From Amphiura filiformis (lineage: Eukaryota > Echinodermata > Ophiuroidea > Amphilepidida > Amphiuridae), in the NCBI RefSeq assembly GCF_039555335.1, contig NW_027305496.1:124001-188000 (forward strand): a stretch of DNA of 64,000 bases, written 5' to 3'. This document shows, piece by piece, positions 427-57,938 of this stretch. Below the pieces are notes generated by a model, which saw nothing but the letters and a program-made list of their open reading frames with translations, was not told the origin of the DNA and did no database searches. The position numbers were made by a program, and so were the translations under genes. How positions within the stretch are numbered: the stretch's first letter is position 1; each line of letters begins with the position of its first letter.

Positions 427-3400
427 CTACAATAAATGACAGAACATAATCTTCATTGTTTTTATGACAATAACACCATTTCACACAACAGAATAGTTGC
501 TCATCCAAGAGGTTTCGCTATGTGTAACACTGAAACTGAACACCTTGCATCGACTGAATCGGTTGCTCACTCTGCGTGATCAGCTTGCTCACTCTGCGTG
601 ATTGGCTTGCTCACTCTGCGTGACTGGGAGCTACTTTTAACCTGAAACTTTTTTCATTCTCAATTCATATTTTCGCATGCCAGTAAATACATGTAGCAGT
701 ATGTGATTTCATTTTTGGTTGGTTGTAAACACTATATTAATGAGTCACCAGCAGTCGTAGTCGCAACTATTAGCAATAGTTGTGACTATCGACTATGACT
801 GGGTAATAGTCGACTAATGATGACTATGACTTGGTAATAGTCGATCGACTAATGATGTCTATGACTTGGTAATAGTTGACTGATGATGACTATGACTTGG
901 TAATAGTCGACTAATGATGACTATATGACTTGGTAATAGTTGACTAATGATGACTATGACTTGGTAATAGTCGATCGACTTATGATGTCTATGACAAATA
1001 AATGATGACTGTGACTTGGTAAAAGTCAACTAATGAGGACTATGACTTGGTAAAAGTCGACTAAATGATGACTACTTTTTGTATCCTCAAGATACATAAA
1101 TAAGACAATTATAATACATGCTAACACATAAAGTTGTAAAGTGTGCCGAGGCTTGTGGATCAACGTCTAGGCGTTGTACCTTTGCATAGCGCACTATAAA
1201 TTATTGCACATTTTTTAAAATTTCTGTTAGGGTTCAGACTTTCAAACATTCTCTGTTCATATTGAGTATATAGTTCAAGTAACAGAAAAAGTAAAAGCTA
1301 ATTTTGTGGAGTCTGTTTCAACACCTTGTGTCAATACCGTGCTACCATATAACTGTATTAATGTTCCAGCTAGCACAAAGGTTCCAGACAGTTTTTCCCA
1401 CAGTAATATTATTGTCTTGATTCATCTGAAAAAGGATATAACACAGTGGGTGTATCAAATATGTGTACATCCATATCAAAACGATGCACTTGTCGGCTGC
1501 TACATGTGTCTCATTTCACATAACAGCTAGGACTAAATATCAGACTCATCTCAAGTGGAGGTCACTTCAAATCATCCAAAAGTCACATGGTTTAGGAATA
1601 CAGAGAACATTCCTTAACCATGTGACTTGGGGATGATTTGAAGTGACCTCCACTTGAGATGAGTCTGGAATTTAGTCCTAGCTGTTATGTGAAATGAGAC
1701 ACATGTAGCAGCCGACAAGTGCATCGCTTTGATATGGATGTACACATATTTTATATTACCTTGCCATCTTTCCAATACAGCTGGTGCAGAGGAACTACTT
1801 TAGCTGGTCGCACATAAGCACGTTTGGATTCCTGCCAAATACAAGACAAAACCAGATACAATGTACCTACATTGATATAAAATTGGATTGATTGAGCCCA
1901 TATTTATTGGTCGAGCTTTGAGTTTATTTCAAAACTCATATCGAGTAAGGGTGAATGAAATTAAGTGGGAGACAGGAGCCATTTGGCCCCCAGAAACTCA
2001 TGGCCCCTGGTTCCATCTCAATTATAGTTGACCAGGGACACTTTTCTTACAAAACTGGCTCCCTGGATAGTGAACCAAAAATATCAAATTCAAAGCTTAT
2101 TTAACTCATCCAGCACATCTTTATTTTCATTAGCCCCTTGTTAATTGGAAATGGCCCCTGATTCCTCCAAATCTTGGTGAACCAGAAGCCACTTTTTCTA
2201 CCAAAGTGGCCCCTGGTTCAAGTTTTCTTATTTTCACCCTTGATAGCGAGACCAATAAATATTGGGCGTAAAGCATTTTATCATTATTATGTTTTGGATC
2301 CAATATTTTCACACACTTGGATTCATCAAAACATAATAATGTACAAAATGTGTTAGGCTGATGGGTAAGCATCATTTACGCCATGATTTGTCTCTGGACC
2401 TTTTGGCTAAAAAGCTATGTGCTAAGCTTTTTTGTTCTTTTTTTTTGTTGCTTTTTTTGAAATATAGGCTATGTTCTATGCACGGTATGCCCTTGTCTTG
2501 AGCTGGTGGGTCTTACCTCGAATGGATGTCGACACAGTACGCTCTTGCCTTGTTCTGGTGGTTCTTACCTCAAATGGATGTCGACACAGTACACTCTTGC
2601 CTTGTTCTGGTGGTTCTTACCTCAAATGGATGTCGACACAGTACACGCTTGCCTTGTTCTGGTGGTTCTTACCTCAAATGGATGTCGACACAGTACACGC
2701 TTGCCTTGTTCTGGTGGTTCTTACCTCAAATGGATGTCGACACAGTACACGCTTGCCTTGTTCTGGTGGTTCTTACCTCAAATGGATGTCGACACAGTAC
2801 ACTCTTGCCTTGTTCTGGTGGTTCTTACCTCAAATGGATGTCGACACAGTACACGCTTGCCTTGTTCTGGTGGTTCTTACCTCAAATGGATGTCGACACA
2901 GTACACGCTTGCCTTGTTCTGGTGGTTCTTACCTCAAATGGATGTCGACACAGTACACGCTTGCCTTGTTCTGGTGGTTCTTACCTCAAATGGATGTCGA
3001 CACAGTACACGCTTGCCTTGTTCTGGTGGGTCTTACCTCAAATGGATGTCGACACAGTACACTCTTGCCTTGTTCTGGTGGTTCTTACCTCAAATGGATG
3101 TCGACACAGTACACGCTTGCCTTGTTCTGGTGGGTCTTACCTCAAATGGATGTCGACACAGTACACTCTTGCCTTGTTCTGGTGGGTCTTACCTCAAATG
3201 GATGTCGACACAGTACACTCTTGCCTTGTTCTGGTGGGTCTTACCTCAAATGGATGTCGACACAGTACACTCTTGCCTTGTTCTGGTGGGTCTTACCTCA
3301 AATGGATGTCGACACAGTACACTCTTGCCTTGTTCTGGTAGTTCTTACCTCAAATGGATGTCGACACAGTACACTCTTGCCTTGTTCTGGTGGGTCTTAC

Positions 3401-6400
3401 CTCAAATGGATGTCGACACAGTACACGCTTGCCTTGTTCTGGTGGTTCTTACCTCAAATGGATGTCGACACAGTACACGCTTGCCTTGTTCTGGTGGTTC
3501 TTACCTCAAATGGATGTCGACACAGTACACGCTTGCCTTGTTCTGGTGGTTCTTACCTCAAATGGATGTCGACACAGTACACGCTTGCCTTGTTCTGGTG
3601 GGTCTTACCTCAAATGGATGTCGACACAGTACACTCTTGCCTTGTTCTGGTGGTTCTTACCTCAAATGGATGTCGACACAGTACACGCTTGCCTTGTTCT
3701 GGTGGGTCTTACCTCAAATGGATGTCGACACAGTACACTCTTGCCTTGTTCTGGTGGGTCTTACCTCAAATGGATGTCGACACAGTACACTCTTGCCTTG
3801 TTCTGGTGGGTCTTACCTCAAATGGATGTCGACACAGTACACTCTTGCCTTGTTCTGGTGGGTCTTACCTCAAATGGATGTCGACACAGTACACTCTTGC
3901 CTTGTTCTGGTGGTTCTTACCTCAAATGGATGTCGACACAGTACACTCTTGCCTTGTTCTGGTGGGTCTTACCTCAAATGGATGTCGACACAGTACACTC
4001 TTGCCTTGTTCTGGTGGGTCTTCATCTAACTGCTGCATCAAGTCGACAAGTGGTCTACCTGCAGAAAAAGATGAGTAATAGACGCCGTCAGCCTTTCGCC
4101 ATCTTGTGGGTACAAATGATATGTGTGTGTATGCGTCGGACACTACTCGCAGGGCGCAGCTTGCCACGCAACTGTTATCGTGCATCGACACAGTGATTTG
4201 CTGTTCACGCATGGGGATCGAACAACCATCACAGCGTGTACCCACAAGATGGCGGCATATGATGTCATGCTGACGGCCTCTATAAAAGGCTAAACTCATC
4301 CAAATTCAGTTTTTGCATGATTTTTGTGCAGGCACACATCAAAAATGCAAAACATTTTTGTGAGCAAGAAGGGAAATAAGTTTTTTTTTGCCCAGGAAAG
4401 GTTGAATGTGATATTTTAAATGGAGAAATTTAATAAGTAGAGAATGCAGATGGGCAGTAATTGTAATCTTGAAAATAGTTTTTTTTACTATACAAAAGAA
4501 TACCAACACAAATTTTTGAAATTTTTTTGAAGTTTTGTTTCTCTCGAAATGTTTGCCATCCTATTTTATGATCAGTTTTTTTCGTCACACTTGTAAAAAC
4601 AATACAAAACACTTCACACCACAACATAAGTATAAGGAAATATCCCAGATTCAGGATTTTTACTACGCTGATTATGCCTCTAGACGAATCCAACAAGCCA
4701 AGTCATGGTCAGGATTTGGTCGGCCATATTATTGGGTCCCCGGCGCACCAAGCTGGTGTTGTGGAATGCCCATTTGGGTGGGCTAAAGCTGCTTAAAAAA
4801 ATCGTTGTTATATTGTATTGCGTTGCAAATTTTCATCATTTTTTTTCTATGTGTAACATGGGTGATGGAATGCAGTTTAAAATTCCCGCCAAGGACGCAT
4901 CATTTCACATTCAGGTGAGATATACTCAGCGGGGACCAACCATGGCTGCCACTGAGGTGTAGGAATGTGTGAAATTGAATTTGTCTATAATATGTGAAGT
5001 TTGTAAACATGTTTTGATTATGAAATTTTTTTTTAATCAGACCGACTGACCCTCTCTTACAGAGAGTGCGAGGACAACCAAAATTTACTGCAATTTTTTC
5101 CTTTTGTGCTATTCCAGTTGAAATCCATACACCCCCTATGGAAGACATGTCCTTAATCTCCCCACAGGGGGTGTAGATTTCAAATGGAGTCACCCTTTCA
5201 GTGACCCCCATTTGAAATTCACACTCCCTGTGTTGGTGATAAAGATCATGTCTTCCACAGGGGGTGTATGAATTTCAACTGGAATAACTGGCTGTACTAA
5301 CCATCCTGTCCATACAATCTATGTATTTGTTTCCTGCCTGGTATGGTGACCTTCTCAATGTCATGACTCAGTTTTATCCGAGGTAGTTCATTCACTTGCA
5401 CCAACTGTATTCAAAACAAGGTATATAAGAACATGGCTTGACATCAGAGAGGCTTGCAAAAAGGTAATGGCCAATTTAAAGTATATTGCCAAGATATTAG
5501 TTCTAGTGTGTGAGCTCGGGGGGGTTGGGACGTACCACTTGGGGGGGGCAAAGCTGCAAGCGGAAAATGTCATCGAACTTTACACAGGGTCAAATTTCAA
5601 ACTTGCTCCTTTTTTTTTTTAAACATTCCAATGTATAGACGTACCGGTCTTGAGTTGTAACTGAAAATGTCAAAGGTTGCATTTTTGGCTCTATAGGGTC
5701 ATAAACATCAAGGTGCTCCGATTTTGCCAAAGAGGTGTCAAAATGTTTATTTTGATAAAACAATTCAAATAAGGATAAGATTGTTTAGAGGTTAATTACT
5801 GTGCATCAGTTATTTGGAAGCCATTGTGAAAAATCTAAATATTTTGCCTTCGGAACCGAAGAATATCCCGAGGTCCAAAGCAAAATGTTTAGATTTTTCA
5901 CAATACCCGACATATTACCGATGCAAAGTTATTAACCTCATTCATAACCGTCACTTTGATCTCTTCAAAATAATACAAACTTTTGCTCAAAAGTTTGTAA
6001 AAATGATTTTTACATCTTCCCTTTCCAAAAATAGATCATCAGGCTAAAACAGGAAGACCAATAACAGAAGTGCGTATCACAATCTGTGCAAATATGGTAG
6101 CGCGCAATCCAAATACAGCACCCAGCGTGAGCGCAGTTTCTTCGACGCACAATATTGCGCGCTACCATATTTCATACGGCGCTCACGGAGGTTATTTACT
6201 TTCGAACAATTATGCATTTTGCGGTCAATTGTCAGATATTAATGACCTCGATTTGCGTTCGCGTTTTTACAAATAACAAGATGTGACTGTTAATGCCTTG
6301 ATAAGTCTTGACATAAAAAAAAAGAAGTAAAAAAAGCTTACCTTAAACACACAGCCTAGTGCAGGCTGTTTTTGACATGTCACTAGATGAGTGCCGATAC

Positions 6401-9400
6401 CAAAAGAATCAATGCTATGACCCTGTAACCATGGTAACAAGAAAAGGGAATCATAATTACTGTATATTGTTAATATCATACCACTGCAATATGGATTTCA
6501 ATATAGCCCAATGGATTAAACCCTAATGGCTTTAAATCTTACAGCACAAAGCTACTGCTCATGCATGCATCTCATATATGTGGTGACCGGGGTGGTGGCG
6601 CGATCACTCTATAGTCTATATACCCCCCGTTTTATTGGCCTCACTAGCAAAGCACCTGTGGTTACCAGTCGCAGATTGAGTGCTTGGCACGCGATCAGGT
6701 CTTGGGTTCAAATCCTTAAAGCTCTGTTCATAATACGCCGCAATTGCTTTGCGATGGGGTGCATTGCCACACTGCATGGTACTGCAAAATACTGCATTGC
6801 GATATCGCAATAAAGTTACATACATTTTAACTGGGAAATGCGATGAGTTGCGGCAAAAAGTAATTGATATATCAGCAACACACCGCATCGCAAAGCAATT
6901 GCGGCGCAGTATGAACGAACCTTATGGGGGGGGGGGGGCGATTGACAGCCTCATCCTCCATTTTGCTTCATCAAAACTGAGATTTTGATTTCAGAAGAAA
7001 GCTTTATATCCCAGGTAAATTTGTACAATATCGGGAATGTTACCAAATCTAAATTAATTGGTATCATCAGGACATTCCTTGTATTCAGAATGAAATTTGG
7101 TGTGTCTGATGTGCTCCATGTGCTCTCAGGTACCAAAATACTGTTCAAATGTTGCTATCCGATTCCTTGAACAACACCAAACACCAAATTCTTTAAAGAT
7201 GTAATCTGCTACAAACATTTATATAACATTCCATGTCGGGTTATATTGAGGACATGATAACCTGTTTCAAACGTTTTAGATCAAAGATACTATGTTATAA
7301 GTTTTAACATTAGAAAATTTTGTCAAAATGATATTGCATACAACATTATTTGTAATCAACATTTATTTTGTAGAATAACATTGAAACAGTTAAACAACAT
7401 TGTCAGAATGTTTATAGAATGGCATGATTTGACCAATACATTTTCTTACTTTGAATATCCGATATCTTTTTATCTTCATATACCCTACTTCATTTTACAT
7501 TTTACTCCTTTCTTCTGGGGTATTTTGTTGTGTTTTTATTCATTTATTAGACCTAATGTCTTCTTAAAGGTTACTAAGTGCTCTGACAAGGCCAAAGATG
7601 TTCTTCGATCACTGGGTGTTTGAGTATGTTGGGAAGAACGGTGTCCAAAGCAAGAAGATTTTGGTTTATGTTAATCAAAAAAGCAGGTTATCTGAACTGT
7701 GGATACACTCACAGAAATTGCTCAAATCCAGGGCATACAAAGATGAGGAAGTGAATATTCCTAACAGGTTGTTTGAGATGTTTCATGCCCAAACATCGAG
7801 TGAAACAAAGGAGCGGATCATTAACGACTTCATGTCTCCCCAGGGCACAATACGAGTGTTAATGTGCACAGTATCTTTGAGCATGGGGGTGCACAATCCG
7901 GATGTGCGAGTGGTTATCCATGTTTGAGCATGTTGGGAAGAACGGTGTCCAAAGCAAGAAGATTTTGATTTATGTTAATCAAAAAAGCAGGTTATCTGAA
8001 CTGTGGATACACTCACAGAAATTGCTCAAATCCAGGGCATACAAAGATGAGGAAGTGAATATTCCTAACAGGTTGTTTGAGATGTTTCATGCCCAAACAT
8101 CGAGTGAAACAAAGGAGCGGATCATTAACGACTTCATGTCTCCCCAGGGCACAATACAAGTGTTAATGTACATGTGCACTGTATCTTTGGGCATGGGGGT
8201 GCACAATCCGGATGTGCGAGTGGTTATCCACTGGGGTTGCCCTTCAATGTCACAGCCTGCATGGGCTTATACATGTAGCTTTGTGAATGGAACCCACAGA
8301 AAATACAACAACTTGTGTTGCATGCTGGGATATCCTTTAAGGACTCTCCCATGTACCCATTCGCAGATGAAAAAAATCAAATAGTACTGTAAAACAACAG
8401 GCAAAGTCCTGTACTTTGTACACTGAGAATTCTTCCATATCATCTATGCGGATGACTGCCAGTTATATGCTTCTGTCAACCCTCGGATTCCTGACGACAT
8501 GAAAAACACTCTTAACCAGATTTCAAGATGCATCTCTGAAATCAGAGAATGGATGGCTGTGAACTATTTAAAGCTTAATGATGCAAAAACCGAGTTGCAA
8601 CAAGAGAAATATTCAGCTAAATGACACTACACTTGAAATTAATTCATCTAAGATGATGCCTTCCACAGCCATCAGAATTCTTGGCATCTACTTCAATAGT
8701 ACAATATATGTCACTCAACTCTTATATTGACAGTCTTCATCGCTCAATCCTCTATCACATCAGAAACATCTGGAGAATACGAAGGTTTATTGATTCTGAC
8801 ACTTGCCATCATGTTGTCCGTGCGCTGGTCCTATCACGATTAGACTATTGCAATGCACTTTTCACTCACTTGTCATCCAAGAACATGATTCGCTTGCAAC
8901 GTTTACAAAACAGAGCCGCACGGTTCATATATGCATTAGGTCGCCAGACTGAAGATGCACCGTTAATTACAAACCTGCACTGTCTCCCTGTAGCATAAAG
9001 AGTAACGTTCAAGATACTGCTCTATGTGTACAAGGCATTAAACAACCAATCCCGGTCACTATCTCAGATCTTCAAATGATCCTTTACGTCTGGTAATTCA
9101 TAGATACAACTCTGAACGCAGATTCACTGCTACTGCTGCCAAAGCCTGGAATAACATACCACTGCACATCAGGGGTGCAACATCCACAAACACTTTCAAG
9201 AAACTGTTAAAAACTCATTTATTCTGAACTTTTGTTGTTAACTTGTTCTACTGCTTTGTTGTATTTGTAAACGCAATGTTGTCTTGCGGCGAATTGAGTC
9301 CTAAATATTTTTTTGTATGTATGTATGTATGTATGTATGTAAAAAAATTAAACAATTTTGGCTAAATAATATTCAGCATTTAGTAACTAGTAGTTTCACG

Positions 9401-12400: not shown

Positions 12401-15400
12401 CTCGGAAACATTTATCCCATCAAAGGTATCCAAGTACCTCCAACTGCCTTATCAATAGCGTTTTAAGGTGACGTGTCTATTTTCCTCTCAATTTTAACGA
12501 AATTTGGTCGGTATATGGCGTTATTATTTACAATGCGGCCGTTTTTAATTCTCTAGAGGGAAATTGATTAACCAAGTTTGTGACGAGTTTCTTTGACTGA
12601 AGATATTGTAATATTATCAGACATTGGGGGAAAATATGCGCGCAAGGGGGGGTGTTGTGTCTTTATACCCCTACCCCTAACGTTTTCGACCTCATGGGGG
12701 GTAGAAACCTTTGTGCATTTTGCTTATGTAATGTGCAACTTAAGTTATTTGACTCACTGTTGTTAAAGTTTTAACTATTATGACGTCATAATTGTATTTA
12801 AAGATCGATCAAACCTGCTATAAACTCTGTTTATCCATAATTGGTCAAAAGTACCCAAAATGGCGGGATGTTTTTAATGTATCAAAAATTGTTTAGAGAA
12901 CCCTTATAGCAGATTGGTGTAATGTATGAATTAAAGAAATGACACTTTTTCTTAGAATGGTTTATTGTTTTCAAAAATAGAGAAAAGTTAAAAAAAATTC
13001 AAACCTCTTGTGCGGTTCAAGGGCGTATTACACTAAATCACTGTGCGAAAGGTGCAATGGTGATGAGTTCCGGTTAAACCAGGCCATGGAGTTGGGCCCT
13101 TCTTCCACAAATATAGGGTTAAAGAGGAATTTTGTTCATACATGAAATCTGCTTTTCACTACAATAAATTTTCTTGCTAACATATTACATGAGTCAGTAC
13201 TTGTGCAATTACCGTACTGACGCGAGTATAGTCCCACCCCGTTTTTGGGTGAACATTTTTTTTAAAGTTTTTTATTTTTCCCTGGACCTAGACCTAAATG
13301 CTAGGATCATTCATGGTTGACCTAAAATGCATTCAAATTCAATGCATTTTGAAATCATTAATAGAGTATGACATGAATACAAATTATCAATTTTCATATT
13401 CAAAATACAAAACATCTTGAAATTTTTAAATTTTTTTTAGGTCAACCATGAATGATCCTAGCATTTAGGTCTAGGTCCTGGGACACTCCAAAGCCGAAAA
13501 AAATAAATAACTTAATATCTGAAAAACAGTTTTGATGGAGTTGGGCCCTTCTTCCACTCAGGTATTCAATTGAAATGCATACCCCTAAGGAAGGCATATC
13601 CTTAATCTTCCACACAAGGAGTGTGAATTTTAAATGAGGCCACCTGAATGGGTGATTCTAGACTCCCTGTATTGGAGATTAAGGTTATGTCTTCCACAGG
13701 GGTGCATGGATTTATATGAATTTATGAACAAACCCCTGTGGCGTAGTGTGGGTCATCAAATTGGGGGGGGGGCATGATGGGGATGGGGCTCCAGGTCTGA
13801 TGGGGGGCACAAGCCATTTTTTGGCAATTTTCCTATGGGATTTTCTAAGTTTTGCATTCCATGGGGCCAACCCCTGCCCCTTTTCTTTCTGAAATGAACA
13901 TTTCTCAGCTCCTATTCTTTGGTGCATTTCATGTTTGGCATTGACGTCAATGCTTTTTCAAGGTTGCGCCGCAAGCGTGCCTACATTTTATTGCAGCCTA
14001 AGATGTAGTGTAAGTTGTACTTTATAGATCATTGTAAAGCACTTTGTTCATACTTAGCGCTATATAAATTCCATTTATTGTATTGTATTGTACAAACTGC
14101 CCTTGTATGTGTTGGTATGCTCTGCGCAATTAACTTTACACACACAATTTGATATGGCATACAACCAGCGAAATACGCACCTACGTCAATACTAATGTAC
14201 AGCCCCTAATGACCTACCTTTCACCAAGTTTAGTAAACACTTCTCTCGCCACGATAGACTGATAGGCCAAATCACCACTATCGATACGTATACCGATGGG
14301 ACGATAACCCAGCTCATCCAGTGCCAAGGCTACTGCACAGAAATTGACTAAACCACTCCTGTAAGGTATTAATAAGATGATTATATGAGATAATAGACTG
14401 ATAGGCCAAATCACCACTATCGATACGTATACCGATGGGACGATAACCGAGCTCATCTAATGCCAAGGCTACTGCACAGAAATTGACTAGACCACTCCTG
14501 TAAGTAAATAATAGGATAATTGAGTTCATATGTGATGCGACTAAGCAAAATCAGTCGGAACTCGGGAATATTAATTTTGAGATATACAAACAGAGAAAGA
14601 GGCTTACGCATCATACACTGGAACATGGAAACATTGAAACATTACAAACTAGCGCACGAGATCAAATTATTGATGTTTAATCATTATTCTTAATATATCA
14701 ATGCACAGGGGAAAGAAGAATTACGCATTGTACACTAACACAATTAAACATGAATTTATAAATGGAAACATTACATGCATAGGCAGATATACCAGAGTAA
14801 AAACTCTGGACATACCAGCCTGTGCGGGGACTTAAACCCAGACCTCTCGCTTGTCGGGCGAGCGCTCTTACCACTGAGCTACATAGACTGTTCCTGATAA
14901 ATGGGACTCAATAGCCAAATAGCTAAACAAAGGAAACATTTCCTTTTGTTTCCTCTTGGTTTGGAAGCTCTTTAATTGCTCATATCTTTGGAACTGGTGT
15001 TCAATTTCAATGGGGTTTTCTGCAAAATGCAGCTTTGTAAATGCTTTTTACTATCCTGTAAGAAACTGAAAATTGAATATTTCCGAGTTCCGACTGATTT
15101 TGCTTGATCGCATCACATCACCTGCTCCCAAGAAATCAGCATTATTAGGAGGCTGTGTACTCTCAGACATGCATGTAGTAAAAGTGCAATCACTTTGTAA
15201 TTATTCGCGCACGACATATAAAAGTATACATTTTTATGCAGGCAAGACATCAATAAATCTTAATATAAATACAGATTTGGGGTAAAAACAACAATTATGA
15301 AGAAAATCACAAAAAAGTGAGTTCTTGGCAATATTTGTTAGGTACATCATAACAAAAAAACACTCTTTCCCAAATATTTTATTTTGTTTTTAGCTCAATC

Positions 15401-18400
15401 TTGAGGCTCCATTCCAAAAACATTTTTTTCATTTTTTTGATATTGGCCTTATTTTTTGAGATATTGACCATATAAGGCATCAAATTGAACTTTTTAAAAT
15501 TCACAAACGCGTATTTGCACAAAATGATGCCTAAAATCGGAAATAGACTCTAAAAAAATGAGAAAACTGTTTCTTGAGTCGATCATGCTTTTTACAATGA
15601 TCATATTTGCTTACCTATAGATGCTGTATTTATTGAGTTATCGTAGTACCTAAATCGTCATTTTACCGAGAAAATGAACATTGAAATAATGGCCGTTGAA
15701 GTTTAAAGTGGTCACATTTTGCACTTTTATCGAATCTCGCAGGAGAATGCGGCAGTTTTTATTTTCTACCTTACATTACATAAACATCGGGTAAATCCAC
15801 GGCCCCTTGAGAAGTTTGAGCGAAATCCATTCATAACTTGATATTTAAATCGGGGAAAGAACTTGAAAAACCCACATTTTAACAGCTAAGCCATTTGACC
15901 ACTAGGTTTTTGTGCTTCTGTGGTGTTTCCATAAGATGCGCCGCGCATGCAGATAAGCGTCGCTTATACATAGCGTATTTGTGCGTTAACAAATTGCGCG
16001 ATACGCAACAGGATGCGTTGTTGCGAGCGTGTACCCTGCTGGTACAACAAATATTTTCTTTCCTTTTCAATTTCAAACATGAGTGGAATAGTGAAATAAA
16101 ATCCTTAAAATATTGCAGTTGGAGTTTACAAATCTGGATTTTCATTCCTTGTATTTATAAAAAACATAACAAAGTACAAACACATAAAAAAAACCTCAAT
16201 TTTGCGAAAGAAACAATGTCTAGAGTACACAGCTGCCTTAAGTCGCAAGTTGGTAGTTTCAAGACCCCTGGCTGCTGAATCTTTGTCTGACGTGCACCTG
16301 TACATGCCAGAAATATCCCTTTGTGAATGGGCATTCTGCAATACAAGTATGACCTTTGTGATTGGGGCACAACATGCATAATGGGACATTCACAAAAGAC
16401 ATATTACTGGCTTGTACATATGTGTGCATCAATCATCAATTTAGCAGCCAGCAGCTTGCTCATTTTGTGGGAGCAGGTCACATATGTGATGCTATGGTCT
16501 TGTTTTGTCAATTTGATCATCTTGGCAGTTTTGTTTCAAACATGTTCAAGGGCCACAAGCAAATAAGCTATCAAATTAGCATATCTTGCAACTAAAACCT
16601 ACTGGAATTTGAAAACCGTTAATTGCCACCCATCCACCAAATCACATCACTATGAGAAATCACACTCGCAAGCTCGGACGGAGGGACAGAATGACAGCCG
16701 ACCAGGAAACATAAGACCTCTGGTGGAGACATATAAATTACTCACTTCATGACATCATAGGTATCCACCAAAGCCAGGAATCCTTTAGGGAATGACCGTG
16801 CATAGGCAATAAAGGCTGCCAGTTCCCCTTTAATGGTCTGCTCTTTGAGAACATCACAAAGCTTACACACCTCACCCAGCCATCTCTCACAGATAGATGC
16901 AAACTCTACAGGGTAGCTACCTTCAGCGAGTGGCTTATCCTATAGTATATTATTAATCCAGAATCCTTGATAGCACACTATAGATCACTACCAAATATGT
17001 GATGCGGTCAAGCATAATCAGTCGGAACTCGGAAATATTGATTTTGAGATATAGCCAAACAAAGGAACTATTTCCTTTGTTTTAGAAACACTTTTATTGC
17101 TCACATCTTTGGAACTGGTTGTTCAATTTCAATGGGGTTTTCTGCAAAATGCAAACTCCAGCCATCTCTCACAGATAGATGCAAACTCTACAGGGTAGCT
17201 ACCTTCAGTGAGTGGCTTATCCTATAGGTGACCCCAGCCATCCGGGTACTTATTTTACATGATGCTACAGTGTCTACACTTACGGTTTTCAACCCACAAT
17301 AGATTGTGCAGCAGAGCGACTAGTTGAAAACTTGTAGCAGAGCTGATTCAATTTGTTTTCACCTCGAATCTGGGCAGATTTCGGTAAAATAAAGGTTAAA
17401 TACTTGGCGAAAATTGCATTGTATGTGAAGCTGAACACATGAACATGTAGAGGAGAGTGTTTATTTTTGTTCTTGGCTGGAGGCCCCATGTCGAGAAGTT
17501 ATAGAAATGGTAGCATTTTGGCCGATTTGAAAAGGGGCAAACCACAGAAAACTACAAATTTGACTTCTGAATCGGATTTGTTGTCAACGGCTTGTGACGT
17601 CACCTCCAGGGTCACCTATAGTATATAATTACTCCAGAATCCTTAATAGTACACTATAACACTACCAAATATGTGATGCGATCAAGCATAATCAGTCGGA
17701 ACTCGGAAATATTGATTTTGAGATATAGCCAAACAAAGGAAATATTTCCTTTTGTTTCCTGTTGTTTTGGAAACACTTTTATTGCTCATATCTTTGGAAC
17801 TGGTTGTTCAATTTCAATGGGAATTTCTGCAAAATCCAGCTTTGTAAATGCTTTTTACTATCCTGTAAGAAAGAAAATTTAATATTTCCGAGTACCGACT
17901 GATTTTGCTTGATCTCATCACATATTACTCACTTCATGACATCATAGGTATCCACCAAAGCCAGGAATCCTTTAGGGAATGACCGTGCATAGGCAATAAA
18001 GGCTGCCAGTTCCCCTTTAATGGTCTGTTCTTTGAGAACATCACAAAGCTTACACACCTCACCCAGCCATCTCTCACAGATAGATGCAAACTCTACAGGG
18101 TAGCTACCTTCAGTGAGTGGCTTATCCTATAGGTGACCCCAGCCATCCGGGTACTTATTTTACATGATGCTACAGTGTCTACACTTACGGTTTTCAACCC
18201 ACAATAGATTGTGCAGCAGAGCGACTAGTTGAAAACTTGTAGCAGAGCTGATTCAATTTGTTTTCACCTCGAATCAAGCCCATTTCTGGGCAGATTTCGG
18301 TAAAATAAAGGTTAAATACTTGGCGAAAATTGCATTGTATGTGAAGCTGAACACATGAACATGTAGAGGAGAGTGTTTATTTTTGTTCTTGGCTGGAGGC

Positions 18401-21400
18401 CCCATGTCGAGAAGTTATAGAAATGGTAGCATTTTGGCCGATTTGAAAAGGGACAAACCACAGAAAACTACAAATTTGACTTCTGAATCGGATTTGTTGT
18501 CAACGGCGGTCAACGGCTTGTGACGTCACCTCCAGGGTCACCTATAGTATATAATTACTCCAGAATCCTTGATAGTACACTATAAAGCAGTATTCAGACT
18601 TTTTATTGTACATAAAATATTGTATGTAACATATCTAGGTTGTTTAATCTATTGCCATTCTATTTCCAGTAATGTTTAAGTTCTAACGAATGTTTGATGA
18701 CGTAAAATCGATAATATATTTCTACTAGATATTATATGTAACATATTATCAAAACATTCGTTAGAACTTAAACATTACTGGAAATAGAATGGCCATAGAT
18801 TGAAAAACGTAGATATGTTACATACAATATTGTACGTCTAATACTCGGAGTCTGTGGAGGGCTTAACACTACCAAATATGTGATGCGATCAAGCATAATC
18901 AGTCTGAACTCGGAAATATTGATTTTGAGATATAGCCAAACAAAGGAACTATTTCACTTTTGCTTCCTTTTGTTTTGGAAACACTTTTATTGCTCATATC
19001 TTTGGAACTGGTTGTTCAATTTCAATGGGGTTTTCTGCAAAATGCAGCTTTGTAAATGCGTTTTACTATCCTGTAAGAAACTGAAAATGTAATATTTCCA
19101 AGTACCGACTGATTTTGCTTGATCTCATCACATATTACTCACTTCATGACATCATAGGTATCAACCAAAGCCAGGAATCCTTTAGGGAATGACCGTGCAT
19201 AGGCAATAAAGGCTGCCAGTTCCCCTTTAATGGTCTGCTCTTTGAGAACATCACAAAGCTTACACACCTCACCCAGCCATCTCTCACAGATAGATGCAAA
19301 CTCTACAGGGTAGCTACCTTCAGCAGGTTGTAGGGTCTGTGGTAAAAAATAAAACAGGAAATAAGTTTTGGGGTTAATTTCAGACCTGCAAATTTAAAAG
19401 GTCACAGAAAAATATTCTGACACATAGGCTTTAAATATGTGTTGCAGTTTGAAACCAAGAAGAAACAAAACCACAAACCTTTTAAGGGATGGATATGAAC
19501 TTTTGGACAGTATTTATTGTGGGACATTAGAGCACATCAGATAAGCTCAGACATATCGAATTGCATTCTGAATGCGAAGAATGTCCTTCTGATATCAAAT
19601 AATTTTGATTTTTTGAAATTCGCAATGTAATACACATTTTATGGCAAATGATTAAAATTGATATTTGTGATATTTAACAGTACTCGAAGTAAACTTTATA
19701 AATCTGATGATTCATACTTAAAGTGTATGTAGGTGGGATAAGAATATATCATTAGATTTATAAAATTTACTTTGAGGACTGTTAGTGTTAATATATCAAA
19801 AATGTGAAAAATATCAAATTTTAATAATTTGTCACAAAATTTGTATTATATCGTGAATTTCAAAAAATGAAAATTATTTGATATCAGAAAGACATTCTTC
19901 GTATTCAGAATGCAATTCGATATGTCTAATGTGCTCTCATGTCCCACAAAAAATACTGTTGAAACGCTCAAAACGCTCACTCCAGATCCCTTAAGACAAT
20001 AAAGACAATTAAAATTGTTTGTCAAAAGGATTTTAGTCCAAAAAGGGATACACACGGATGTAAGTAGCTGTTGAAAAAGGTGCGACGTGTGCAAACTGAA
20101 CACTTGCTCAGGGTACAATCTGACTTTTTTTGCAAAATTGAGCATTTTTCAACATTTTTGGTGAAAGTTGGTCAAAATATTGATGAGCAAGGGAATTCTC
20201 AATGATTTGTAGATCATCCACACAGCTCTCAATGGGAGAGACTGCATTATTTATCCCACCTCAGAAGGCCTTCTATTTCCCACAATGCACTTTGTTTATG
20301 CATTGTCCGCTTATCGTTGCTGACAAAAAGATCTCAAACATCATCCCACATACCAGGGCACAGTTCTATGACCTCCATTGCTTGTACACTCATAGAATGA
20401 CTTATCTATGTCTTGGGTACAAAAACTCATACTCTACAACTTGAGGTCAAATTATGAGCTATCATTATTGAATAGAGGCTTTTGAACTATGCAATTGTCA
20501 ATGATGCTATATTTTGGCTGCAAGTGAGAGGATAAAACCTTTTCACCCGAGATATTGTTATTTGACGTCAGTACACATCACGCCGATGCGCACATCGTTT
20601 AGCGAACACACATACTGCGCATTGCAAGTCTGAGTGATATCAAATGACAGTAGCTCATAATGTACTCGCAAAGGTGACTTGTGTGAAAATTGCCTCTTTT
20701 TTTGTCACATCGGTCCACTTTGGAGTGACACTTTATGCAAATTTGCCTAGAAACAATTGTCTATATTTCACCTCGTGTTACCATAGTAATGACAGTCCTT
20801 TAACATGGTTGTGGCCCAGGATTCTAGTTTTTGGATTTATAGGTGGGGATGTGGCAGTGATCAGAATCTTTGTCAAAAATCAAGTTACCTCCGCATGGAA
20901 TAAAGCAATTCCTATTGTGGTAACTGGGTCGTTGACCAAGATTCAGCTTTCTGCGGGGATGTGAGGCTGGGATTCCAAAAACTTCCCAGAAAATATACCA
21001 AATTTGATGAAAATCAATACATACCCTACATTTGAGGTCATCCATACTTGCAAATGACATAATCATGGAATGTGCATTGGTCCCGTTCAATGGTATGCCA
21101 AATAGCTTGCCTGCTAGTACATTGCTGGTGCCATCAAAACCTGCAACAAGATCATCATGTTTTTCATTTATTACTATATTGCTCCATTCATGTGTCACCG
21201 TGTGTGGATATTATATTTAAAGGGGACAGCTGTGTTGTGGATAGATCCATTGTTGACAGTCATGTCATCAGACACAACACCTTCAAGTCTTCAAGTGCTG
21301 CTTGCAGTTACTGCAGGGTTCCCGCACCTTGACACCTTTAAAAGTCAAAGATTTTTCAAGGACTTTCAAGGTCCAAAAGAATGATTTTCAAGGACTTACC

Positions 21401-30585: not shown

Positions 30586-33500
30586 ATGAAGCTCACAATT
30601 ACGACAGCAACGTTGTACCTTCTACTTAAATTAGTATTTTTAAGAACTCATACAAACGAGAAAGTTGTTTTCCCTGGCTTATTGAGTGGTGTGAATCCCA
30701 TCAGTACTTATACAGTATCCCAGTTGAAAAACAATGTATTTCATTCATTTGCCGTACTTGGTGTTACGCTGGGTCTTAATCCAGTTCAATTCTCACAATA
30801 CACCTTACCATGGTCCAATTCATGGCATTCAATTTCTTTCAATGAAAGCGCAGTATCGATGGTGGTAGCTAAGCAAACTGTCTTAAGGGCAGCTCACATC
30901 CCCCATACTTTCAGTATCATCAAGAGTGCCCCAAGTTATACGTGCACAAAATCCAACCTGGTACTCTCATATTTCCACTTGTTATTATTGATCAATGCTC
31001 ATGATATTGAACTTAATCCAGGGCCATACAAGCCTAAATTCCCATGCCAAGTATGTTCTCTTGCCGTTAAGTGGGGTCAGAAAGGTATAAGGTGCGACAG
31101 CTGTCTCAGCTGGTACCATGCCGATTGCATGGGAATGTCTACCCAAACTTACGAAAACTTGGATGGGAGTAAGGTGATATGGTACTGTGATGCTTGCGGT
31201 GAGGCCAACTACTCAGAGTGCCACTTGTTCAGTAACTCAAGCATTGAATGTTCTAATAGCTTTAGCAGCTTGGGTTCTGTGAATGAGGATGGTGGTCTAG
31301 TACTTGGCTCGCCTAGGGCATCGTCATCCCCTGTGAAGTTACCTGGCATAAATGTAAATGACCCAAAAACTAAGAACAAAAAGGTCCACAAAGTTGGATC
31401 TCTGAGGTTTCTGGTTGTTAATTTCCAGAGTGTTAGAGCGAAGCGAGAGGCGTTTCATGCTTGCATTGACACCAATAAGCCCCATGTCATAATTGGCACG
31501 GAGTCTTGGCTCAACGACTCTGTGAGTAACAGCGAGGTATTTCCACGGACTTTACAGCCATAAGAAAAGACAGGAACTCACACGATAGGAGAGGAGGTGT
31601 ATTTGTTGCTCTCTGAAATGACCTAATTGGTACTCACCAGGTTGATCTCGACACCGATTGCGAAATTGCTTGGGTACGCATTCAGCTTGTTGGGTGCAAG
31701 GACATCCTCATTGGTGCGTTTTATAGAACACCCAGCAATACTGACCCAAATTATTTGGAGATGTTAAGATCGTCTCTTGCTCGTATTAACATCACCAAGG
31801 GTACGACCGTGTGCTTAGGTGGAGATTTCAACCTGGGGGGTATCAATTGGCCCAATCATACTGTCAATCCTGGAGCTAGAGATGTTGGGCTATGTAAGCT
31901 CATGATTGAGATAGCCGAACAATTTAACCTAACCCAAATGGTAACTGAGCCAACAAGGGAGGATAAGATTTTAGACCTCTTTCTTACCTCCAATCCAACT
32001 TTGGTCAACAATGTTATGACCAACCCGGGGATTAGTGACCATGACGGAATCCCCATGATTGACATGGCAACATCTCCTACGCTTTTGAAATCTAAGCCTA
32101 GAAAAGTGTACAAATACCAAAAAGCCAATATAATGAAGGGTTGAAGAAAGATTTTATCAATCTCAGCTCCAAAATTTTGGCCTCAAATTCTTCCACTATT
32201 GAGGATGATTGGAAATTGTTTAAAGAATCTTTAACAAAGCTAGAAAATCTGGTAATGAAACTGACAAACAAAATTTCAGAAACATCCGTAAAGAAGTACA
32301 AAAAGACACTAAGGTGGCATACTGGAGATGGGTAAGATCCTCATGCATTGAGTCCCTAAGCAATTCTGGAGCGTCGTGAAGAAGTTACATAACGATAGTG
32401 TGGGCATTCCTGCTCTTAGAAGCAATGGCTCACTTATTAGTGATAGTGTTGGAAAAGCTGAAATCCTAAATCACCAGTTTGAATCGGTCTTTACCAATGA
32501 AAACCCTACCGATAACCTGCCCAAACAACAGTGTTATCCACCAATGCCTGATTTTGAAATATCCCAGGATGGGGTATTCAAATTACTGAATGATTTGGAA
32601 GTTAACAAGGCCCCAGGGCCGGACGGCATCCCAGCAAAAATCCTGAAATCTTTTGCCAAAGAACTCACACCGGCGTTGACACACATTTTCAGGAAGTCTT
32701 TAGACACAGGGTCCCTTCCTTCAGACTGGCTCACAGCTAACATCACCCCAACTTTTAAAAAAGGGGACAGAGCCACTGCATCAAATTACAGGCCTGTGTC
32801 TTTGACACCTATTTGTTGTAAACTGTTAGAACACATACTTCATAGCCAAATTATGCACCACTTTAATAATTTCAATGTCCTATCGGACAGGCAACACGGC
32901 TTCCGCCGTGGTCACTCGTGTGAGAGCCAATTAATCCTTACTGTCAACGACCTTGCTGAAGCCCTTGATTCCAAAACATCTGTAGATATGGTAATCATGG
33001 ACTTCAGCAAGGCGTTCGACACGGTTCCTCACCAGAGGCTGCTTTACAAGTTAGAAAAATATGGTATAACCGACAGGACTCATACATGGGTAAAAAAATT
33101 TTTAACACAGCGGAAACAGAGAGTTGTCGTGGATGGTGATCATTCACAGTGGGTGCCAGTTAGATCAGGCGTTCCCCAAGGCACCGTCCTCGGCCCCTTA
33201 TTGTTCTTAGCATATATAAACGACCTCCCTGGTAACATCTCGTCGGAGGTTCGTTTATTTGCTGATGACTGTGTATTATATCGCCCCATCCACGACAACT
33301 CTGATGTTTCTCGCCTTCAATCTGATCTTGATACCTTGCATATGTGGCAAAACAACTGGCAAATGCAATTTAATGCCAGTAAGTGTTTCACACTTAAATT
33401 GTCACATTCTAGAAGTAAGACTACCCATCAGTACAAACTAGGGCAGTCTGTGTTGCAAGAAACGGACTCACACTCATATCTGGGTATTCAAATAACAAAT

Positions 33501-34063
33501 AATCTTAAATGGGATAACCACATCAATCATGCCATCTCAAAAGCCAATCGAGTTCTAGGGGTAGTGCGTAGAAATTTGCATCCGTGTACCACTGAATTCA
33601 AATCAATTGCCTATAAGGCATTAGTGCGGCCGCACCTAGAGTATTATGGAACCGTATGGGATCCGCAACTAAAGAACACATACTTAAATTGGAGGCGGTG
33701 CAATGCAAAGCTGCAAGATTTGCCTGCAGAGATTACGACCAATATAGTAGTGTCACTAAAATGTTGACACAACTTGAATGGGACTCACTACAACTGCGTC
33801 GACAAGCTAGTCGCCTCACTCTGTTACACAAAAACACCACAGGTCAGGTCGCCATACCTGCTCAAAAATTTCTCATACCAGTCACCCGCCCCACTCGCCG
33901 TCAAAACGTCAAGGCATTTAACAGACCACGAGCCAACAAGAACTGTCTCAGAGACTCATTTTTTCCAAAAACAATCAATGAGTGGAATACCCTGCCTAAC
34001 AACATCATTAACATCGAAACAGCGGAAGCATTCAAACAAGAAGTAACCAACCACCTAGGCTAA
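30586..34063 (+). mobile_element. CR1-like LINE with 2A-type peptide, PHD finger, endonuclease and reverse transcriptase (frame-broken)
   Basis: Order of parts: ATG at 30586; a hydrophobic signal-like N-terminus (LYLLLKLVFL); DIELNPGP at residues 140-147, the 2A ribosome-skipping core; a PHD finger (CQVC, CDSC, WYHADC, WYCDAC, residues about 153-205); the start of an exonuclease-endonuclease-phosphatase domain (LRFLVVNFQSVRAKR), continued in other frames with CLGGDFNLGGINWP and GISDHDG; reverse transcriptase 32376-33767 with NKAPGPDGIPAKIL, SGVPQGTVLGP and LFADDC (FADD at 33258-33269); and a C-terminal domain in another frame to 34063. Breaks near 31.55, 31.62, 32.14, 32.33 and 33.7 kb make it inactive. 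2A in non-LTR elements is known from sea urchin and other animals. Confidence 0.92.
31003..31026 (+). other. 2A-like translational recoding motif
   Basis: Encodes DIELNPGP, preceded by a leucine-rich stretch (FHLLLLINAH). It fits the consensus D-V/I-E-x-N-P-G-P, in which the ribosome skips the Gly-Pro bond. Here it would separate a 146-residue signal-like leader from the PHD-endonuclease-RT part. Confidence 0.85.
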
Positions 34064-38345: not shown

Positions 38346-39189
38346 TGAACTAACTGAGAGCTTGAAAATCTGAAAAAATCTGAAATTTTTTGCAATATAT
38401 TTTGAAAATGTTTCTGAATATTTTTCAAAAAAAATCCAGTCAAAATCAGTCAACTTCAGACAAAACATGGATTTTTTTTTTGGTAAATGAAATCTTGACA
38501 ACGCAAAATCTGGATCGATTTGGCCTGTGTTTTTTTTTCTATCTGCTGCCAATCCTGGTTGACAAGAGCCCAATTGTGTAATTTAAAAACCATAATTATG
38601 AGTATATATAAAATCTAATAATTTTAATTAATTTTTCCTTTTTTTACAGGAAGTTACCAAATTCTGTTATCTATTCCAGCTCCAGTTACACCTCATTAAT
38701 GTCCCTGGACCTTTGGATGTATTGAAATACATTTATGTATGGCATTTTACTCAATATAACAGGGCTGGAATGCTAGTGTTCTAGCCCTTACAATAAACAT
38801 CTAGGCCTAATTCTATCCAGGAAAATATGCATGAGGTTCATTTGTACGGTGATCACCACGTAACGTCACTGGAGTTGGAATGGATAATAGAGAGAATGAA
38901 CTCTGTTGTAGGAGTCTTGGGTGTAGGAATCAAAAGACTCTAATTTTGTTTGATCTGATTGATTACCATAATTAAGTAAAATGTAAATTACTTTTGAGCT
39001 TATTTTATACAGGAGGAAATTGTTCCATGCAGTGAAAAAGGCTCACATTTTGTAAAACCAATAATCACTATATCCTGTAATTAACTTTAAAACTAATTAA
39101 TGCCTGTTTTCCTTTTGTACACACAGGAAGTTTGTTTTCATGATCACTGGCAATTCATCACTGATAGCGTGGAGTTCGGATGAGTTATA

Positions 39190-42100
39190 ATGGTGAATAA
39201 AAGAAAGAAAGGAAAGAAGGACACTGGAAATGAAAGAGAGAAAGGAAAGAAAGATAGCAAGAAAGTGGTTGATATGTTACCAACTTGTAGCACCACCAAA
39301 GAGGAGACTCGGAATGAAAGGAAGACAAGAATGAAGGAAAAGAATGAAGACAAAAAATTAGTTGGTCTGCTACCTACATGTAGCACCGCCATGGAGGAGA
39401 CTGGGAATGAAAGAAAAAAAGGATTGAAGGAAAGAAAAGAAAACAAGAACATGGTTGATATGTTACCTACATGTAGCACCGCCATGGAGGAGACTGAGGA
39501 TGAAAGAAAGAAAGGAAAGAAGAAAAAGAAAGAAAGCAAGAAACAGCTTGGTCTGACGAGGAGTGGAAGAAAGAAAGGAAAGGATGAAAGAACAAAAGGA
39601 AAGCAGAAGAATGAAAGCAAGAAACAGGTTGGTCTGTTACCAAAATGTACAAAATGTAGCATCACCGCCACTGGGAATGGAAGAAAGAAAGGAAAGCAGG
39701 AAAAGAACGACAATGAGCAAATGGTTGATATGATACCTAGTACCACCATGGAGGAGTCTTGGGATGAAATAGAGAAAAGAAAAAACGCAGAGAAAGAACG
39801 CAAGAAACTGATCGGTATGTTACCCATCACCATGGAGGAGACGGGGGATGTCGGTATTCCTGTGGGACAGCTGACGGACGATGCATTGCTCATCATTTTC
39901 TCTCAACTCTCTATCAAGGAGAGGGTTGCTTCTATATCAAGGTATGAGCCCAAACATGGCTGTTCCTTTTGAACTGCATACACCCCTGATTGAAGACATG
40001 ACACAGGGGATGTAGATTTCAGGGTCACCCATTTAGGTAACCCCATTTGAAATTCACACTCCCTGTGTGGTAGATTAAGGTGGTGTCTTCCATAGGGGGT
40101 GTATGGATTTCAACTGGAATAGCCCAATATATTAAGTGTTTGTGTCGGACTTGACTCCCAGAATCTAGAAACTGATTGGACACAGTTGTGTCTGAAATTA
40201 AGGGGAGACTAGCTATAGTTGGTAGATTTTCATTATCTTAATCAATTAGGCCTACATTGTTGGCCAAAAATAAGGTTTGTCTCAATACTCGCGCACGCAT
40301 TTGTAAAATCGCACGATTTGAAAAAAAAAAGAAATGCAGATTTATTTTTTATTTCAAAAATTCGGCAAAATCAGATTTTTTTCTCAAAATACCATAAAAA
40401 TACCAAGTCGGGAATAAAAAAAAGTTGCATTTCGTATTTGTTTTCAAACCACTCGTGAGCTTTGAGACAAACTTTTTTTTTGGCCTTATTGAAAAATAAC
40501 ACTTTGATGTTTTGCAAAAGTTCATTCTACAAATCATATAGGCCTACTTTGAAAACTTGCTTGATTTATTGTTGTGAATGAGATGTACGTTTTACATTCA
40601 ATATTGTTTCAGTCCTCTTTACAACATAACTCAAGAACCACAGGACCTACAAAAGTATATCCGTGATATTTGAATTCTTCTACAAACTCGTTATGAAATG
40701 ATCAATGCAATTTGTGCCAAAGCTCACTACCATTCGCAAGATGCTGTGAACTACCAAATCACAACAGTTGCTAACCTTAAGGCGAGTCAGAGCAGTGTCT
40801 GAGCTAGCAGTGTTTGTGCTCACATATTGAGAAAAAAAAGCACACACTCACAGGGATTTCATGTGGAATAGCCAATTTATTAGTACAATTCAGTAACCTT
40901 CATCTATGTCTTGTTTTGTTCTTTACTCAGAGTTTGTAAAAGATGGAATCGTGTCGTCAAAGTCGGTGCCATTTGGAGGCATGTAGACATGTGGGAATGG
41001 CAAGAAGTGGTACCGTCGAGCGTGAGACGAAGCCGTAAACTCAACAAACCCTACACACGAAGACAGGCGAAAATAGAAGCACCGGCAAAGGTCACGTTTG
41101 AATTACGCCCAATGATAAAGAAGGAGAGAAAAGCATTGAAATTTCTCCAAACATATATTAGCGGGTCTCTACGAACCTTAAACTTGTGCGTCGTGAGCGA
41201 CAATATTTTGCAATTTCTGCGAGATAATTGTCCCAAGTTGGAAATCCTTACGCTAGGTAGTAGTTTTGAGCATAGAGATTTCCTTCCCGCTCCTGGGATA
41301 AGAAATGTAGATTTTTCGCTGGTACCCAGTAGCGTAGTCAGGCTTAAGATACAAAGCGGCTGGGCTGAAAGAGGTAAAGTTGTCCCTCCCAACCCACTGG
41401 AAGGGCTTGCCAAAGATCCATTCCCCAACATGAAGGAGCTGATTCTGGAGCGGCACGTATCATATCCAGCAGAGCTGTTCCAGCGATTAAGCCATTGCAC
41501 CGCATTGAAATCACTCTCGCTAATCTCCTTTGAGAGGGTCAGCGATTTCGCGGTCCTCGCCAAAGGTTTGGCTGGGCTAGAGGAACTTTGTCTTCAAAGC
41601 TGTATTCGGGAGAACGCCGCCACAAAAAAGGTTCTGTTCCAAATTGCGGACAACATGACGTCGCTTACACATATTAAGTTACGTGCCGGGCCGACTCCGC
41701 AAGACGAGCAAGTGTCAGTTGACAGTGGGATAAGCAGGTTGCGATCCTGCAAGAACTTAAGGCAGGTGTGGTTGGAAAATCTCCACACCTTTTCCATCTC
41801 GGGATTCAAGACACTCACGACAGGACTCCCAAATCTCCAAGAGATCGTCCTAGTCGACTGCGACCGAGTCGACGATGCATTCTTGGAGCACATCCAAAAT
41901 CAGTTGAAGTCTTTGAAGCTGCTGCGACTAATCCGATGCGTGCAGCTCACTGACTTCGGTACGAAGTTCCTCCTACATCATCCATCGGTAGAGCATCTAG
42001 AGATCGTCGGGAAACTCCAGACCACCCGTGTGTTCCCAACGCCAAAGATCATCTGTGAGATTGCCGAGTCGATGGAGTCTCTGAAGACTCTGAAGGTCCT

Positions 42101-42257
42101 CATCACAGGTCATCCACCCACAGATGTGCTGAAGCCTCATTTCCATCAACTGAAGAACATGAGACCGGAGATGGAGATCAGGATATACCTAAGACCGGAT
42201 GTAGAGATGGAGCTATTTGGATGTAGGTGCAGTTATGAAGATGATACTAGCGGATAA
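39190..42257 (+). CDS. F-box and leucine-rich-repeat protein with lysine-rich repeated N-terminus
   Basis: Two exons, 39190-39941 and 40931-42257, joined ATCAAG|GTATGA to TTACTCAG|AGTT, give about 692 residues. Residues 1-225 are five or six repeats of roughly 36 residues rich in Lys and Glu with the recurrent cores LLPTCSTAMEET and NERKKGKK. Residues 226-275 are an F-box (GQLTDDALLIIFSQLSIKER then VCKRWNRVVKVGAIWRHVDM), the Skp1-binding domain of SCF ubiquitin ligases. The rest has irregular leucine-rich repeats such as LEELCLQSC, LQEIVLVDCDRVDD and LKLLRLIRCVQLTDFG, the likely substrate-binding part. It resembles FBXL proteins but I cannot name an ortholog. The F-box is split by the intron. 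An AG at 39126 may end a 5' untranslated intron. Confidence 0.88.
39963..40126. mobile_element. Foldback MITE, family B, in the F-box gene intron
   Basis: TTTTGAACTGCATACACCCC to TTTCAACTGGAATAGCCC. It starts only about 20 bp after the exon 1 donor. Confidence 0.85.
40258..40489. mobile_element. Oligo-A-ended MITE, family D, in the F-box gene intron
   Basis: TTGGCCAAAAATAAGGTTTG then TCTCA on the left; TGAGACAAACTTTTTTTTTG then GCCTTA on the right. Confidence 0.75.
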
Positions 42258-57855: not shown

Positions 57856-57938
57856 GCGCACATCGTTACTGCGCACATCGTTACTGCGCACATCGTTACT
57901 GCGCACATCGTTACTGCGCACATCGTTACTGCGCACTT
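57856..57938. repeat. 15-bp tandem repeat, 5 copies
   Basis: GCGCACATCGTTACT repeats exactly every 15 bp from 57856 to 57930. It reads as a five-residue repeat on the minus strand, but no gene context supports translation. Confidence 0.95.

Follow-up and report, generated by a model that had tools for sequence, protein, structure and literature searches.

A putative mirage-type minisatellite with 29 copies of the exon 10 splice donor in a modelled NAPRT gene of Amphiura filiformis

Tandem repeats that span exon-intron boundaries are known as 'mirages', a name given in lancelet Adh3 (PMC3087553). Mirages with concerted evolution are also described for the lancelet globin genes BflGb6 and BflGb9, where two BflGb6 haplotypes have 6 and 3 units, respectively, and RT-PCR suggests no interference with regular splicing (PMC3087553). 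A mirage of 2-7 units is reported for PGBD5, with troponin C cited alongside as a mirage gene (PMC3902484). In human IFI6 (6-16, G1P3), a minisatellite provides multiple splice donors (PMC4526556). Furthermore, tandem genomic duplication carrying AGGT is described as a route to intron gain (PMC3443670), and tandem repeats are found at exon-intron boundaries of human duplicated genes (PMC2812944). Since mirage minisatellites are already in print, the array studied here is less strange than it would otherwise appear. No paper combining 'nicotinate phosphoribosyltransferase' and 'minisatellite' was found in the literature covered, which excludes most subscription journals and is thus weak evidence that the locus is unreported.

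We studied a stretch of 64,000 nucleotides from Amphiura filiformis (contig NW_027305496.1, positions 124,001 to 188,000; in the following, the window). The GC content is 38%. Features related to the array are listed in Table 1. On the minus strand, the word GAGGTAAG occurs exactly 29 times, with first bases from +3975 down to +2519 and a spacing of 52 nt in 28/28 intervals, i.e., GAG|GTAAG is found in each unit. Tandem Repeats Finder reports the array at 2492-4022 with period 52, 29.4 copies, 98% matches and 0% indels. The unit equals the last 48 nt of NAPRT exon 10 plus GTAA of intron 10; of the 2141 nt in this intron, 1456 belong to units 2-29. Thus, word scan, repeat finder and gene model reproduce the preliminary description in terms of copy number, unit composition, lack of indels and sense orientation (all 29 words are on the minus strand, as is the gene). 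The span given there, 2479 to 4058, does enclose the array, but 4021-4058 holds the 5' part of exon 10, which is not repeated, and 2479-2512 only a decayed partial copy.

Table 1. Window coordinates of the array, its host gene and related duplications (numbered along the plus strand).
Feature	Position	Strand	Basis
NAPRT gene as modelled, exons 1-12 (may extend past window edge)	319-25087	-	gene model, TIGR01513 and 4yub_A matches
NAPRT exon 10 (86 nt, of which the final 48 belong to unit 1)	3973-4058	-	gene model
Intron 10 (2141 nt)	1832-3972	-	gene model
NAPRT exon 11	1760-1831	-	gene model
Unit 1 (48 exonic nt and GTAA; donor preserving the reading frame)	3969-4020	-	word scan and gene model
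Units 2-29 (GAG|GTAAG in each; within intron 10)	2513-3968	-	word scan, Tandem Repeats Finder
Unit 29	2513-2564	-	word scan
Decayed partial copy past unit 29	2479-2512	-	25/33 bases equal to unit
Units 4-12 (variant order identical to units 15-23, 2825-3292)	3397-3864	-	0/20000 permutations as good
NAPRT exon 5, three copies of 194 nt each	16746-16939, 17933-18126, 19143-19336	-	sequence comparison

The downstream copies had been called perfect decoys, which holds for the 8-nt donor word but not for the whole unit. That is, 6 kinds of unit sequences are present among the 29 units, and 9/29 are identical to the exonic copy (exonic one counted). Variation is restricted to 5 of the 52 unit positions (3, 5, 22, 24, 45). 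Position 3 is C in 13 and A in 16 units, position 22 is A in 16 and C in 13, while positions 5, 24 and 45 show single changes; unit 29 has two private changes. The inner units are alike and the partial copy at the far edge is decayed, whereas the exonic edge (unit 1) has not diverged. A block of nine units recurs 11 units, i.e., 572 bp, away (units 4-12 and 15-23). No piece resembling the array was found elsewhere in the window at E 0.1, so a mobile element was discarded as an explanation, as was a structured RNA, given that Rfam matches nothing in the window except a tRNA, which lies outside the array. The plus strand over the array (2461-4075) is stop-free in all three frames, with stretches of 522 and 536 codons. 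Since 1147 of 20000 shuffled units are equally open in three frames, we take this as incidental rather than as an antisense gene.

The host gene was modelled with 12 minus-strand exons found from ORFs and motifs, with introns bounded by GT/AG and using copy c of exon 5. When the donor of unit 1 is used, the model provides one open frame of 525 residues. The predicted product scores 525.8 bits against TIGR01513 (nicotinate phosphoribosyltransferase; cut-off 297.4) and aligns to PDB chain 4yub_A with E = 6.1e-163, which we take to be the human enzyme. At the level of sequence, the host gene thus matches NAPRT, as had been proposed, and is an animal-like NAD-synthesis gene. The model also agrees with the earlier assignment of the first copy as donor of exon 10 and with the exon number itself. 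The exact join is less constrained. Searched by itself, the 52-residue peptide encoded by exons 10-11 had 4yub as its single match (E = 0.64), and the full-length alignment to 4yub_A contains a gap of one residue where these exons meet, around which similarity is weak. Since this stretch is poorly conserved, support for the join comes mainly from splice signals and the open frame. Given the modelled boundary, the array would show the structure by which mirages are defined.

Splice-site duplication appears repeatedly within the NAPRT locus, since the array is accompanied by a triplication of exon 5 and a duplicated exon 6 acceptor (three cases). The exon 5 copies share 182, 184 and 192 of 194 bases (94-99% identical) and differ mainly in their first codons (TLQP vs. 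DKPL). The frame is preserved with any single copy but broken with two, three or no copies, such that a message could include just one of them. They may represent mutually exclusive exons, duplicates of recent origin or alleles that were joined. The second exon 6 acceptor is part of a 139-bp partial duplication, where a comparison over 95 nt shows four base differences, none of which changes the 31 encoded residues; if used, the upstream acceptor breaks the frame. Intron 7 holds a 304-bp tandem duplication (7617-8230, plus strand), where an ORF at 7881-8381, which overlaps the second copy, has a PF00271 match (helicase C-terminal domain). A tRNA-Val (GAC) gene is located at 14816-14889 (minus strand) inside modelled intron 5. 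Further along the plus strand, we observe ORFs resembling a non-LTR retrotransposon, with domains for endonuclease (PF14529) and reverse transcriptase (PF00078), at 31617-33764 as well as an ORF with 93-bp internal repeats and no Pfam match followed by a leucine-rich-repeat ORF (39184-42254). The latter pair is perhaps one F-box/LRR gene, with its F-box-like end judged by eye. A perfect 15-bp tandem repeat of 5.4 copies is found at 57856-57936.

The recurrence of the nine-unit block fits an unequal exchange of several units but also a duplication made by the assembler. That is, a short real duplication might have been inflated by mis-assembly, or allelic copies might have been joined. Besides the identical block, the near-identical exon 5 copies and the synonymous exon 6 differences would also fit joined alleles, and one globin mirage is reported as 'aberrantly assembled' in a genome draft (PMC3087553). 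On the other hand, the ordered unit variants and the decayed edge copy resemble a real array, and we consider an assembly product very improbable.

Next to the array itself, its coding consequences can be read from the model. For each of the 29 donors, the message was built from the acceptor of exon 10 through exons 11 and 12. Only the message of donor 1 is open, while 28/28 others stop at one common TGA in unit 2, after residue 481. Donors that add a multiple of three nucleotides also run into this TGA. The predicted product of any downstream donor has 465 native residues followed by 16 foreign ones after HPFE and lacks the last 60 residues of the model. Within the model, only copy 1 would therefore preserve the protein, in line with the preliminary claim that just the first donor gives a functional message. 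The common TGA is located 73-1477 nt upstream of the exon 11-12 junction, which is the last junction modelled. A stop upstream of the last exon junction is the usual setting for nonsense-mediated decay (NMD).

Donor strength does not single out copy 1. The computed pairing of the exon 10 donor with the U1 5' end is -9.6 kcal/mol, the 5th of the 14 donors modelled in the gene, and is identical for all 29 units. The 28 downstream donors are thus equal for U1, as had been stated. Outside the array, 11/3432 GT sites on the minus strand pair at least as well, real donors included. RNA structure was likewise rejected as a selector, since computed local folding shows no advantage for donor 1: its unpaired probability of 0.552 is the third lowest of 29 (range 0.52-0.66). 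Pairing and local structure therefore provide no preference for donor 1. Its distinguishing feature is the distance from the acceptor of exon 10, i.e., an exon of 86 nt compared to 138, 190, 242 and so on for the following donors, which suggests that the choice is made by exon definition. SRSF1, which activates intron-proximal donors (PMC5585400), would oppose the choice of copy 1. On donor competition, the available part of PMC8724738 holds no direct result for several equal donors.

As the donors of all units are equally strong, splicing might make appreciable use of some units that follow closely on the first, with mRNAs that all encode one truncated NAPRT. This has a precedent in human IFI6, which splices from two of its downstream repeat units (PMC4526556), and would agree with the one stop common to all downstream donors. 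However, the product would lack the 60 C-terminal model residues, its mRNA should be an NMD target, and lancelet mirages are reported as leaving normal splicing undisturbed. We thus regard appreciable use of downstream units as unlikely. Recursive or nested splicing through the units is hardly credible. While TTTGAG|GTAAG places an AG immediately before GT in each unit, this AG is preceded by G and by 12/20 pyrimidines. The five AG sites per unit show 7-12 pyrimidines in 20, compared to 9-17 at the 13 modelled acceptors of the gene, where the overlapping ranges make the comparison a weak one. No acceptor-like site in the unit stands out, such that pseudoexons are unlikely as well.

Is the perfection of the donors a sign of function? 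The preliminary description suggested a titration of U1 or a regulation of NAD synthesis by copy number. In such a scenario, the number of extra donors would tune NAPRT output or sequester U1. Both the intactness of 28/28 extra donors and the fact that all of them lead to one unproductive isoform would agree with it. However, none of the 5 variable positions (0/5) is inside the 8-nt donor word, for which P = 0.42 by chance (a weak test, given only 5 variable positions). Since units vary at only 5/52 positions, it is expected by chance that every unit retains an intact donor, and there is no sign of special donor conservation. This removes the evidence for selection on the donors and leaves neutrality unproven. 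No function is needed to explain why all 29 donors are perfect, as a homogenised array yields donor identity by itself. Furthermore, cellular U1 is far more abundant than the nascent RNA of one gene, such that some dozens of sites are negligible, which counts against a U1 sink. We consider tuning or sequestration highly unlikely, and the regulatory reading of the array is without support in this analysis. A polymorphic dial is equally doubtful. There, the number of downstream donors would set the fraction spliced to the common NMD-targeted isoform; if true, array length would heritably tune NAD salvage.

The array is probably near-neutral and tolerated rather than useful. Overall, we consider it quite likely that it is a mirage-type minisatellite, homogenised and tolerated, with copy 1 as main donor and leaked messages removed by NMD. 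Its origin would be a short tandem duplication across the boundary between exon 10 and intron 10 (48 exonic nt and GTAA). Slippage at AGACCCACCAGAAC had been named as the likely cause, but this word is more likely the product of the duplication. The only older microhomology visible in the sequence is AAGA, common to exonic GATGAAGAC and a normal GTAAG(A) donor, through which the duplication may have arisen. Unequal exchange would then have expanded and homogenised it to 29 copies. The alike inner copies together with the decayed edge copy correspond to the pattern of concerted evolution as described for globin mirages. Copy 1 would be kept as main donor by pairing with the acceptor of exon 10 across the normal 86-nt exon. 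Leakage to downstream donors would yield messages with the early stop, which NMD should remove, and the array would be tolerated without being selected for. Several points count against this reading. The 29 donors are equal for U1 and copy 1 is no better exposed, SRSF1 would act in favour of intron-proximal donors, two downstream units are in use as donors in IFI6, and the block duplication might stem from the assembler.

All 29 donors have the same core, are regularly spaced and follow a nearly identical stretch of 48 nt, and they differ almost only in their distance from two acceptors. The array is therefore a natural experiment in which position effects on the choice of a 5' splice site are titrated. 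Since only donor 1 preserves the NAPRT frame, it also comes with a built-in readout of donor choice.

Finally, we compare the locus with the known systems. In AGGT-based intron gain and in human boundary repeats, tandem duplication likewise multiplies splice-site-like sequence. In contrast to intron gain, the NAPRT unit already holds a donor and its extra copies sit inside an existing intron; the acceptor of modelled intron 10 lies beyond the array and no new intron is evident. The IFI6 minisatellite as described by Turri, Cuin and Porter in 1995 reportedly has a short repeat unit of about 12 bp. IFI6 uses two downstream units, resulting in three mRNAs (PMC4526556), while downstream donors of the NAPRT model, if used in this way, would all give an early stop. 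The closest likeness is to the lancelet mirages. Here as there, the unit spans an exon-intron boundary (as modelled, 48 nt of exon 10 and GTAA), and the inner units are homogenised with a diverged far boundary, although the unit 1 edge of NAPRT has not diverged. The internal block duplication is consistent with length instability, as far as one sequence can tell. The array differs by its host gene and by a donor word that is exact in all units. Furthermore, the mirages in the reports considered come from cephalochordates, with 6 and 3 units in BflGb6 and 2-7 in PGBD5. With 28 extra copies, the NAPRT array as read from this sequence would be a mirage of unusual length and cleanness.
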